A DNA stretch of 26,617 nucleotides, from IMG/VR virus record IMGVR_UViG_3300031631_000017, positions 1 to 26,617 of that record. One strand, given 5' to 3'. The DNA comes from a virus. The notes below the pieces were generated by a model. That model ran no database searches. It was not told where the DNA came from and worked only from the letters and a program-made list of their open reading frames with translations. Positions 298-17,504 of this stretch are shown in pieces; within the stretch, counting starts at the first letter, position 1, and the number at the start of each line of letters is the position of its first letter. The position numbers and the translations under genes were made by a program.

Positions 298-409
298 GAA
301 AGAATACTTTTCAGATGGTCAGTTAATGCGATCCTACGAAAGGTCAGGATCTCCGAATTGGTCAGACAATAAGAACATATCAGTTCCAATTTCAGGAGTA
401 GGGATTTAG
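224..409 (+). CDS. Rz1-like outer-membrane lipoprotein (o-spanin candidate)
   Basis: This 61-residue protein has a Lys at position 2, a long hydrophobic segment and the lipobox LTSC with Cys20. It should therefore be lipidated by signal peptidase II and anchored in a membrane, leaving a mature chain of about 42 residues. The start chosen is TTG at 224, because the in-frame ATG at 248 would remove the positively charged N-terminus. It begins inside the preceding gene in the +1 frame and runs past its end, as Rz1 does inside Rz in many phages of Gram-negative hosts. The mature part is not proline-rich like lambda Rz1. No good ribosome binding site is visible before the TTG, so translation may depend on coupling to the overlapping gene. 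Confidence 0.62.
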   Translation: MKILIIIVMIVVTLILLTSCQSVSEKEYFSDGQLMRSYERSGSPNWSDNKNISVPISGVGI

Positions 410-411
410 TA

Positions 412-516
412 AAATTCTAAGTTCCTATTGTTGCAGAAAAGCCTTTACTGTCAGGTTAAATTCCTGAAACAGTAAGAGCAATAGATAAGCAAGATATACT
501 TATCTAATTAGAATTT
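412..516 (+). ncRNA. Structured three-way-junction RNA element
   Basis: Nested inverted repeats predict a compact fold. P1 is a perfect 9-bp stem (412-420 with 508-516). P2 is 425-430 with 479-484 and encloses a second hairpin (445-451 with 469-475, continued by 452-455 with 463-466, 7-base loop). P3 is 485-489 with 499-503 and can gain two pairs by competing with P2 for bases 483-484. It begins 2 bases after the lipoprotein stop and is followed at once by the terminator at 519-547, so on the + strand it would be the 3' end of the lysis transcript or a stand-alone RNA. Strand is uncertain because inverted repeats fold on both strands. It is not a tRNA: no canonical T-loop or anticodon arm could be found. 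Confidence 0.4.
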
Positions 517-664
517 ACGCCAATCTCATAACGGATTGGCTTTTTTTATCCTCCCGGATGTTAATAATATGATTGGCGCATTTACTACATACAACCATTC
601 CATTCTCGGCAAACCATTTCTCAATGTCCTTCATGTTCTTCATTCCACACATCTTGCAAGTCAT
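515..664 (-). CDS. Small zinc-ribbon protein on the opposite strand
   Basis: Reading the - strand gives a 49-residue protein that opens MTCKMCGMK and has a second Cys pair, CSKC, at residues 26-29. Two CxxC pairs about 20 residues apart are the usual signature of a small zinc ribbon. A strong ribosome binding site (GGAG with a 7-base spacer) precedes the ATG, and a good sigma70-like promoter lies further upstream at 709-737. It is the only convincing - strand gene in the window. Its last codons overlap the terminator of the + strand lysis region and its stop codon abuts the structured element. The role is unknown; proteins of this type often bind nucleic acid or a host protein. Confidence 0.72.
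   Translation of the reverse strand: MTCKMCGMKNMKDIEKWFAENGMVVCSKCANHIINIREDKKSQSVMRLA
519..547 (+). terminator. Intrinsic terminator after lysis region
   Basis: A 7-bp stem (gccaatc at 519-525 with gattggc at 534-540) with an 8-base loop is followed directly by seven T residues. It would end + strand transcription from the lysis genes and the structured element. The same bases code for the C-terminus of the convergent - strand gene. Confidence 0.85.
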
Positions 665-9001: not shown

Positions 9002-9260
9002 GATGTGGCAAAAAACTAAAGAAAAGTACCTAAAAAACAAAAAACAAATGTTGGGAAAAGATGTGGCAATGTGTCAAAAAGTAAAAAGATGTGTCTTGTG
9101 TCAATTATGTGTCATATATAAGTCTTTAATAGTTATCTCTTTTTACACATTGCCACATTTGCCACATATATTTAAACATTGGATATAGTAATAATAAATA
9201 TAGTAAAAATGGTATATATATAAAGTCCTATGGGGGGTATATAGGGGAAGAGGTGGCAAG
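9002..9260. other. Iteron-rich AT-rich region, candidate replication origin
   Basis: Eight or more short repeats related to GATGTGKCAA fill this gene-free stretch. ATGTGGCAA is at 9003-9011 and 9061-9069; TGTGTCA variants start near 9070, 9090, 9097 and 9108; the inverted form TTGCCACAT is at 9150-9158 and again directly after at 9159-9167; GGTGGCAAG is near 9252. AT-rich DNA follows. Repeats in both orientations beside a primase/helicase gene are typical of initiator-bound origins. No known DnaA-box array is apparent. The role is inferred. Confidence 0.5.
9061..9158. repeat. Long inverted repeat within the candidate origin
   Basis: The left arm (9061-9074) and right arm (9145-9158) are perfect 14-bp complements. 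After one unpaired C (9075) the pairing continues for six more base pairs (9076-9081 with 9139-9144). The loop of 57 bases holds three of the TGTGTC-type repeats. It could extrude as a cruciform or fold in RNA. No T-run follows, so it is not a plain terminator. Confidence 0.85.
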
Positions 9261-10318: not shown

Positions 10319-10467
10319 CCGACATTAAAAAAAATTATGTGTGTCCATCCTGCGAGACAGAGACTTACCATTTGATATGCCGGGAGTGTAGAAAGCAAGG
10401 CAAAATGATTCCAACGTTCAGCAAGCAGCATTATTATCAGTCAATAGAAAGGATCAGGAGAGTATGA
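10315..10467 (+). CDS. Small zinc-ribbon protein
   Basis: The 50-residue protein has CPSC at residues 10-13 and CREC at 23-26, followed by a basic tail (IERIRRV). AAAGGAG lies 5-10 bases upstream in the previous gene and its ATG overlaps that gene's stop. Its stop again overlaps the next start. Another member of the Cys-pair mini-protein group of this phage; role unknown. Confidence 0.65.
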   Translation: MTDIKKNYVCPSCETETYHLICRECRKQGKMIPTFSKQHYYQSIERIRRV

Positions 10468-10799
10468 ATGAACGATTTCAACACATGGGTGAGGGCCTAT
10501 CAAGACCATCATCAACAGCACATATGAGAAAGGGAATGATAGCACCGAGATCTACATCAATCCCTGAGGAAGACCATCGAGAAATGATATATCTTAGGAA
10601 TATCCTCGGGGAAAAAGCCAAATTGATAGCAAAACATTACGGTTTACACATAGGCAGGATATATGATATAACGACAGGTGGAAGGCTTAGACCATATCTG
10701 CATAAAGACCCTGAATATAAAGAACTCAAAGAGGAAATGGAATCAATCGGATTTCCTGCGAAATGGGAAAATATGAAACTAAAATTGGAGGATTGGTAA
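10464..10799 (+). CDS. Hypothetical protein with possible HTH
   Basis: The 111-residue protein has a polar, Arg/Ser-rich first 35 residues and then a helical part. Residues about 47-70 (LGEKAKLIAKHYGLHIGRIYDI) could form a helix-turn-helix in which IAKHYGLHIGRIYDI is the recognition unit, like the 'which-codes-to-bind' HTH of small phage regulators. The end is acidic and Trp-containing. AGGAG precedes the start, which overlaps the previous stop as ATGA. No named family is recognised, so DNA binding is a guess from the pattern. Confidence 0.55.
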   Translation: MNERFQHMGEGLSRPSSTAHMRKGMIAPRSTSIPEEDHREMIYLRNILGEKAKLIAKHYGLHIGRIYDITTGGRLRPYLHKDPEYKELKEEMESIGFPAKWENMKLKLEDW

Positions 10800-10800
10800 T

Positions 10801-10953
10801 ATGAAAAAATACAGGGTTGTAAAGACAGATGATGGAAAAGAAACTTACGCAACAGGTGTTATAGACCTATTTCAAGCGGAGAAGGTCCTTGAATACTTGG
10901 GGCAGTATGTCAGAACAGTAACATACAAAATAGTGGAGGCAAAATATTTATGA
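10801..10953 (+). CDS. Hypothetical small protein
   Basis: The 50-residue protein begins MKKYRVVKTDDGKETYATG, an alternating pattern suggesting two beta strands, and continues with a helix (LFQAEKVLEYLGQ) and a final strand (TVTYKIVEAKYL). This beta-beta-alpha-beta layout is compact and protein-like, but no family is recognised. GGAGG lies 8 bases before the start. Stop and next start overlap as ATGA. Confidence 0.58.
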   Translation: MKKYRVVKTDDGKETYATGVIDLFQAEKVLEYLGQYVRTVTYKIVEAKYL

Positions 10954-11147
10954 AACCAAGTGTAACACATGTATGGGATAACCTAGATGAGATAATAGAT
11001 CAGCAGATAAAACGTATCAAAGTGTTAGAGAGAGCCTTAGAAGATCTACATAAAGAGTTTCTGTCTTCAAGTATTGTTTTTTATGACAGAGGACTCGAAA
11101 AGAGGATTAAAAAAGCTGAACAGGAGATAGAAAATGAAAAAGTATAA
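10950..11147 (+). CDS. Small coiled-coil protein, IKVLERAL type
   Basis: The 65-residue protein is almost all helix, with heptad-like spacing around IIDQQIKRIKVLERALEDLHKEF and again near KRIKKAEQEIENEK. The segment IKVLERALE recurs in the protein at 11545-11982, with clear DNA similarity, so the two share an origin. GGAGG lies upstream in the preceding gene. The next gene starts 14 bases before its stop and borrows GGAG from its codons as SD. Function unknown; it may be a small oligomerising partner. Confidence 0.62.
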   Translation: MKPSVTHVWDNLDEIIDQQIKRIKVLERALEDLHKEFLSSSIVFYDRGLEKRIKKAEQEIENEKV

Positions 11148-11403
11148 TAAAAGGTTATGGCTAAATGATGATTTAAGTTCTTATACTGGCTCAGTGGCGG
11201 CGTATTCAGGGAAAGTAAATTGGGGTGGGGAAAAAAGAAAAGCTAGTTTTTTAGAAATAGCTGATTGCCAATCCAAAGTTAAGATTCATAGCGGTAAACA
11301 AAATAATGGGAAAAAATATATTAAAAAGCTAAAAAAGCTTAGAACTTTTATTGATAATTTTATAAGTTTTTTAGAAAAAAAAGAATTAGGAGATAGGCAA
11401 TGA
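11134..11403 (+). CDS. Hypothetical basic protein
   Basis: The 89-residue protein is Lys-rich with a Gly/Ser-rich front (SSYTGSVAAYSGKVNWGG) and a helical tail (IKKLKKLRTFIDNFISFLEKK). GGAG lies 7 bases before the ATG, within the preceding gene. Its stop overlaps the next start as ATGA. No family is recognised. Confidence 0.55.
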   Translation: MKKYNKRLWLNDDLSSYTGSVAAYSGKVNWGGEKRKASFLEIADCQSKVKIHSGKQNNGKKYIKKLKKLRTFIDNFISFLEKKELGDRQ

Positions 11404-11564
11404 GTGATAAAATAAAACCATTGGAAGAACATTCTATAATCAATGGAAATGGTGACTGCTGTGGAATGTATCAGCCATCAACGTTGGAAATAATGTTCAA
11501 GATCAATGAAATAATTGAGAGACTTAATGACGAGGAAATTAAAAATGAACAGAAACACCCATGA
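11400..11564 (+). CDS. Hypothetical small protein
   Basis: The 54-residue protein has a paired CC at residues 20-21 (GDCCGMYQPSTLE) and a helical C-terminal half (MFKINEIIERLNDEEIKNE). AGGAG lies upstream and the ATG overlaps the preceding stop. The following gene starts inside its end. No family is recognised. Confidence 0.52.
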   Translation: MSDKIKPLEEHSIINGNGDCCGMYQPSTLEIMFKINEIIERLNDEEIKNEQKHP

Positions 11565-11982
11565 AGAATGTCAAAAGAAAATTAGTAGGCTTTATCTAGC
11601 TAACCAAGATCTTGCTAGAGAAAATTCTAAAATCTTTAAGCTTTTAGAGCAAGCTGAAAATATCATCAGACTCCGAGAGAAGGAAAAATATCATTTGGTG
11701 AAGACTTTAGACTTAATGAAATTTTTTGGAATAGATACAGTTTCATTTATGCAATCAGCTAGAAAGGAGATAGAAAATGAAAAAATATGTTCTGTTTTTC
11801 ACACAAAAGGTGATTTGCAAAGGCTTTGTGAAGTGAAAGATGAACGTATCAAAGTCTTAGAAAGAGCATTGGAGCTCGTTGAATGTTACGATATGGATTT
11901 TAACAAAAAAACTGTTATCGCAATAGCTAAAGAGGAGATTAAAAAGGAAGAACATAACAGCTCTAAGGAGCTAAAAACGTGA
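11545..11982 (+). CDS. Coiled-coil protein, apparent fusion of two paralogous pieces
   Basis: The 145-residue protein is a long helix with heptad patterns over residues 1-50 and 90-135. Its centre reads ARKEIENEK, matching the end of the protein at 10950-11147, and about 25 residues later comes ERIKVLERAL, matching that protein's middle. At DNA level 19 identical bases (11766-11784 and 11123-11141) include a fossil SD and ATG that here lie out of frame. The gene thus looks like the end of one small coiled-coil gene joined to the start of another. The ATG at 11545 is preferred to the upstream TTG at 11515. It overlaps the previous gene by 20 bases. Function unknown. Confidence 0.6.
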   Translation: MNRNTHEECQKKISRLYLANQDLARENSKIFKLLEQAENIIRLREKEKYHLVKTLDLMKFFGIDTVSFMQSARKEIENEKICSVFHTKGDLQRLCEVKDERIKVLERALELVECYDMDFNKKTVIAIAKEEIKKEEHNSSKELKT

Positions 11983-12209
11983 AAGGCTTAAAGATGAATA
12001 ATAGACCAGTACAAACCTATACTTGGAAACGATTAGAAGATGATAATTATAGTAGTCGAGTCAAAGATGAAATTGGAACATTTCTGAGTTTTGGCTGTGA
12101 TTATATCGAGTATGAAACAGGTATAGGCAATTTTTCAACAGCTATAATCGAGCTAGATGATGGAATAGTAAGAAATATAGCGGTTGATGATATTGATTTT
12201 TTAGATTAG
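11979..12209 (+). CDS. Hypothetical acidic protein
   Basis: The 76-residue protein starts at GTG 11979, which has AAGGAG 8 bases upstream and overlaps the previous stop as GTGA; an internal ATG at 11994 is the alternative. The sequence is beta-rich and acidic at the end (AIIELDDGIVRNIAVDDIDFLD), like small SH3-like phage proteins. The SD itself lies in a small hairpin (agctc/gagct), which could modulate translation. No family is recognised. Confidence 0.58.
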   Translation: MKGLKMNNRPVQTYTWKRLEDDNYSSRVKDEIGTFLSFGCDYIEYETGIGNFSTAIIELDDGIVRNIAVDDIDFLD

Positions 12210-12238
12210 GATATTAACCATCAAACAGGAGATAGTAA

Positions 12239-12451
12239 ATGAAAATTAAAGACAAAAGATTAAAAAAGATGGTGGATGTATCAGAAGTAAATTGTCCAAT
12301 GTACAAATGTTATTGGGCCAGGCCTGACCCAGGGTCTTTCACCCAAGGTCAAGGTTATAAGTTTCGCTCTAACGAGTGGCTATGTGGAAACAGGGAAATT
12401 CGTGGTTGTCCTAATGAACCTAAACTAAGGAAGGCTACAAATGAAAAATAA
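12239..12451 (+). CDS. Small Cys-containing protein
   Basis: The 70-residue protein has four Cys (about residues 19, 24, 49 and 57: CPMYKC ... CGNREIRGC) separated by an aromatic/Gly stretch. That spacing could hold a zinc ion. AGGAG lies 7 bases before the ATG. It starts 29 bases after the previous stop, one of the few real gaps in this row. No family is recognised. Confidence 0.62.
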   Translation: MKIKDKRLKKMVDVSEVNCPMYKCYWARPDPGSFTQGQGYKFRSNEWLCGNREIRGCPNEPKLRKATNEK

Positions 12452-12468
12452 AAAAGAAAGAAACTATA

Positions 12469-17343: not shown

Positions 17344-17364
17344 ATGAAAAAATTAACGATCAAT

Positions 17365-17399
17365 GCGGTGTAATTTCACGATTACATCGCTTTTTTTTT
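17365..17399 (+). terminator. Strong intrinsic terminator after terL
   Basis: A 10-bp stem with one G-T pair (17365-17374 with 17381-17390), a 6-base loop and a run of nine T residues. It should stop transcription of the MTase-terminase operon. Confidence 0.92.
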
Positions 17400-17430
17400 G
17401 CCTTTTTTATAACTTTATTGCTTTTAGTAC

Positions 17431-17459
17431 TTGATATAGTCCGCAAATAGGACTATATT
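17431..17459 (+). promoter_or_regulatory. Promoter with overlapping operator palindrome
   Basis: TTGATA (17431-17436) and TATATT (17454-17459) are 17 bases apart. A 9-bp inverted repeat, ATATAGTCC (17434-17442) with GGACTATAT (17450-17458) around a 7-base centre, fills the space from -35 to -10. A dimeric repressor bound there would block RNA polymerase. The HTH protein at 17696-17914 is the obvious candidate. The copy at 789-817 has the same hexamers but no such palindrome. Confidence 0.75.
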
Positions 17460-17504
17460 ATAAGTAACAAGAGAGAGATAAACTAAACATAAAGGATTAA
17501 GACT

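Follow-up and report, generated by a model that had tools for sequence, protein, structure and literature searches.

A candidate structured mRNA 3′ end in the gap between two convergent phage genes

The DNA analyzed here (the window) is an entire virus record of 26,617 bases, and the gap between two of its convergent stop codons, TAG at 407–409 (plus strand) and TAA at 517–515 (minus strand), is filled by a compact, hairpin-rich element. On balance, the mRNA carrying the upstream lipoprotein-like gene is read as ending in this structured element, with hairpins and a terminator serving a protective and terminating role; it is probably a late phage mRNA 3′ end in a convergent gap that travels with the upstream gene. 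Inverted repeats, a stop-codon hairpin (H0) that outcompetes the outer stem P1, a terminator, and a like layout in one other phage (G003) were all found computationally, and from the sequence we infer transcription, the relevant strand, and the protective role. Among the roles suggested in the initial annotation, the best fit is a structured 3′ end for the upstream mRNA, followed at once by a terminator, once the label of lysis mRNA is set aside.

In the proposed mechanism, the plus-strand transcript would fold into one local hairpin after another (H0 at the stop codon, then P2 and P3), and transcription would stop at 541–547, ahead of the convergent genes. The hairpins probably shield the mRNA 3′ end against 3′-to-5′ exonucleases; being palindromic, they may in addition slow polymerases that come along the opposite strand. 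In favor of the plus-strand reading, a plus-strand terminator stands behind the element in both phages despite differing sequence; against it, the minus strand also folds well, there is a single relative, and a related phage (G001) has no such hairpins. The element is ordinary in kind and its function putative. If the hairpin string protects or times a late phage mRNA, it would represent a small 3′-end module that moves with its gene between otherwise different phages.

Table 1. Positions of the element's predicted structures and of the flanking open reading frames in the window
Feature	Position	Strand	Remarks
Upstream ORF, 61 aa	224–409	+	stop TAG 407–409; travels with the element
H0, 13-bp hairpin	397–429 (397–409/417–429)	+	spans the upstream ORF's stop codon; excludes P1
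P1 arms	412–420 and 508–516 (412–516)		forms in the excised piece; lost on plus in context
P2 hairpin	441–479	+	same bases as hairpin HB on minus
P3 hairpin	482–506	+	same bases as hairpin HA on minus
Predicted intrinsic terminator	519–547	+	8-bp stem 519–540 plus T7
Four-way junction (alternative)	412–516	−	P1, HA 506–482, HB 479–441, HC 439–422
Convergent ORF, 49 aa, zinc-ribbon-like	515–664	−	two CxxC pairs; good ribosome-binding site

Stems, terminator and folding in context

Both the stems and the terminator are genuine and exceed what chance would give. The arms of P1 form an inverted repeat of exactly matching 9 bp, as the initial annotation had claimed, and inverted repeats of at least 9 bp with a span of at least 80 arose in 15 of 2,000 dinucleotide shuffles. 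The P2 and P3 hairpins are both present (the P3 stem pairs 482–489 with 499–506), and an outer P2 stem (425–432/477–484) overlaps the first bases of P3 in the way described. For 412–547, the folding energy lies far below that of shuffled sequence on both strands (−38.2 kcal/mol, z −5.27 on plus; −42.2 kcal/mol, z −5.80 on minus), and none of 200 shuffles did as well in either case, in keeping with the dense pairing reported for this stretch; for 410–518, none of 1,000 shuffles equaled its energy on either strand. On the plus strand, the element ranks with sites at 9041 and 17361 as one of the window's most structured stretches given its GC content. The former belongs to a long inverted repeat at 9040–9170, just behind a primase-like gene, with several ATGTGTC and TGTGGCAA repeats (z −4.85 on plus), a possible iteron-bearing replication origin or regulator site. 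The latter lies in 17347–17470, after the terminase gene, where a terminator-like hairpin with nine T is followed by the palindrome ATATAGTCC-GCAAATA-GGACTATAT.

The terminator stands directly behind the element, as had been noted, within the minus-strand 49-aa ORF. Its G+C-containing hairpin is followed by a T run, the hallmark of an intrinsic terminator, and no other terminator-like site was found on the plus strand within 1–1800. By a d'Aubenton-type formula with a cut-off of 0, it scores 18.5 in the window, and its counterpart in G003 scores 28.7.

H0, absent from the initial description, is strand-specific in its stability (−14.1 kcal/mol, z −4.86 on plus; −3.5, z −0.65 on minus). The predicted plus-strand fold of 398–547 consists of four separate hairpins, namely H0, P2, P3, and the terminator (z −5.74); the 150-nt counterpart in G003 forms the same four plus a 2-bp one (−43.0, z −4.89). 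P1 is lost from the plus strand in context because H0 uses its left arm: with at least 30 nt of upstream and at least 35 nt of downstream sequence, the predicted probability of P1 is 0.0 in both phages. Forcing P1 costs 4.1 (window) and 5.8 kcal/mol (G003) with 11 upstream nt, and 8.8 (window) and 9.7 kcal/mol (G003) with 31. The three-way junction proposed initially is therefore predicted for the cut-out piece only, and 31 upstream nt suffice for H0 to displace P1. Even for the excised plus-strand piece, two renderings of the proposed fold reach −15.8 and −22.0 versus −27.1 for the minimum free energy (MFE) fold, and the outer P2 stem has a probability of 0.16 there (0.69 in the excised relative). 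The accompanying idea of two states in competition between P2 and P3 finds no support once upstream sequence is included in folding. By these predictions, the three-way junction appears to be mostly an effect of folding an excised piece, a case in which such folding misleads, with 31 extra upstream bases swapping a junction for a stop-codon hairpin.

A single relative and the linkage to the upstream gene

G003 (IMGVR_UViG_3300031741_000225, locus L279; 27,513 bases) was found with an 18-base pattern that gave five matches; it is the one true relative, and the other four have only 19 bases in common. Window positions 319–517 match the end of the G003 contig at 95%. Two differences lie in the upstream ORF (T358C and G403A), both synonymous as worked out from the frame, and the last 29 residues are identical; the others are T410A, T446C, T461C, C470T, G476A, A477G, and G478A. 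G403A and T410A strengthen H0 in G003 (core −9.2 to −11.5 kcal/mol); the P2 hairpin is weak there in longer plus-strand contexts (0.14–0.25), which speaks against a strictly conserved fold. Homology ends at 517, a single base beyond P1. From there on, G003 carries a same-strand terminator of different sequence, and its convergent side is an unrelated operon end, with no zinc-ribbon gene found beside the element. With the upstream ORF kept and the neighborhood on the convergent side replaced by unrelated sequence, the element belongs with the former and not with the convergent gene. The suggestion that it is tied to the convergent gene does not hold, given the unrelated neighbor in G003, and a 3′ UTR of the zinc-ribbon gene was rejected on the same ground.

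The two phages otherwise differ, apart from a shared small-gene block. Five other small proteins are common to both (38–80% identity), whereas G003 showed no match to the terminase of the window. The block (window 10326–12458 and L284 10478–11639 of G003) has 74–91% DNA identity in rearranged order.

The upstream ORF contains LLTSC, which we take to be a lipobox-like motif. None of the three small plus-strand proteins preceding the element had a confident match in protein family searches. The best PHROG match of the upstream ORF is Cor superinfection exclusion, a weak one (E 0.0044) that is perhaps due to the signal peptide alone. Its match to the Rz-like spanin family is at E 0.38 only, and the ORF may not encode a spanin. 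Elsewhere in the window, an ORF at 1010–1588 has a long Ala/Ser-rich repeat tract and matches the Imm-5 like immunity family of Pfam by a narrow margin above the cut-off (26.6 versus 25 bits).

The element falls into no Rfam family. There were no Rfam matches at gathering score across the window and, up to E 10 on 380–600, six weak ones far under their cut-offs (best E 0.66); no tRNA or tmRNA was found. Searches of phage and plasmid DNA returned nothing at E 1e-5, and the short matches admitted by a limit of E 10 were put down to chance. Scans of viral contigs with terminase, zinc-ribbon, and one DNA pattern gave nothing usable, and the loci obtained through helicase, RecT, and capsid scans were all without the element. 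A pattern search of genome contigs yielded 110 stretches with no convincing alignment outside the pattern, which were taken as chance, and 100 of them scored with a minus-strand model (R1) gave a best E of 0.33. One 27-bp match in 369 genomes of one class was dropped, as it lies inside a cellular gene. With R1, nothing was found at E ≤1 in 96 sources; a set of 72 returned just the two members plus the opposite strand of the window itself (0.21); a set of 100 gave four matches between 0.33 and 0.97, regarded as chance; and among 38 whole virus records, one match, G003, the known positive. A plus-strand model (R2) found only the two members in 98 sources. While R1 left out loci L266–L275 and some overlapping pieces, BLAST and nhmmer covered 279 loci; these held one other copy, in G003 beside the same ORF, and there was no second copy in the window record.

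G001 is related to the window phage by its capsid (74%) and terminase (52%). A small lipoprotein-like ORF at its late-gene end is 27% identical over 55 residues to the upstream ORF, which is not significant (E 0.18), and behind it are a promoter-like site and no such hairpins; no terminator-like site was found there. The promoter, strong and sigma-70-like (TTGACA-17-TATACT; L032 5452–5424, minus), directly follows this late lipoprotein ORF. The element is rare and no fixed part of this phage group. A literature search found no description of such an element, which is weak evidence.

Strand and alternative explanations

Predicted energies are as good for the minus strand as for the plus strand, which makes the strand assignment tentative. 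On minus, 398–547 reaches −43.6 (z −5.68), and its G003 counterpart −46.9 (z −6.26). Consensus folds of the two sequences have three one-sided kept changes, no two-sided ones, and none broken on each strand, so that covariation could not be used to choose between them; six changes fall inside 412–516, from one relative only. With fixed structures, pairs lost in one sequence number two for the minus four-way fold, two for the plus MFE fold, and one for a fold like that first proposed. The terminator, the linkage to the plus-strand ORF, and the strand-specific H0 favor plus.

The minus strand could instead yield a structured RNA (516–412) with a cloverleaf-like four-way junction, acting as the 3′ UTR of the convergent transcript or as an antisense RNA to the plus-strand mRNA end. 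This fold is the most stable one of the excised 105 nt, with a shape common to both phages (−31.9 kcal/mol, z −5.85 in the window; −32.9, z −5.27 in G003), its consensus energy is lower (−29.8 versus −22.0 for plus), and HA and HB have probabilities of at least 0.89 in every context tried in both phages. However, P1 and HC, at 0.66–0.83 within flanking sequence in the window, vanish in that of G003 (≤0.01), the two phages have different convergent genes, any promoter for such an RNA is putative, and H0 favors plus; we consider this explanation unlikely. Slightly less probable is a two-way terminator zone, in which the plus terminator ends the late operon, HB followed by TTTTCT ends the convergent transcripts, and P1 and HC are by-products. 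Convergent genes flank the gap in both phages, HB with TTTTCT is the top-scoring minus candidate in each, no other terminator was found between the convergent gene and the ORF, and terminators of convergent genes are often bidirectional according to PMC7566282. Yet HB scores −19.6 (window) and −17.2 (G003) by the formula used above, under its cut-off of 0, and its T tract is short, so that HB-TTTTCT may help to stop the opposing operon, though the case for it is weak.

Because H0 and the P1-closed junction are mutually exclusive, a ribosome that completes translation of the upstream gene could flip the 3′ end from one fold to the other. That this exclusion amounts to a ribosome-driven switch in an exchanged, gene-linked RNA, or else that the minus four-way fold is an antisense RNA of a class outside Rfam, seems improbable to us. 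An element acting at the DNA level, whether a small inverted-repeat mobile element, a recombination site, or a protein-binding palindrome, would suit the near-equal folding of the two strands and the end of G003 homology one base beyond P1. It is the least probable of these explanations: the only copy outside the window among the loci fetched adjoins the same ORF, inspection by eye showed no target-site duplication aligned with the P1 arms, and no integrase was found among the window proteins scanned. A miniature inverted-repeat mobile element was rejected, as no dispersed copies were found in the window record, the 279 loci or the 38 virus records.

Comparison with known systems

The element resembles the intrinsic (Rho-independent) terminators of phage operons in having an 8-bp hairpin and seven T behind the 3′ UTR of the last gene, but differs from them in packing three further hairpins between stop codon and terminator. 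Bidirectional terminators between convergent genes are described in PMC7566282 and PMC11347151; compared with these, the element is alike in its place, a hairpin-rich gap between convergent stop codons, whereas its plus terminator is without a T tract on the other strand and the candidate on minus is a weak hairpin of its own. Bacterial sRNAs in Rfam (STnc430, OmrA-B, VqmR, and others) fall below gathering score here, yet share with the element their length, A/U-richness, and terminator end.
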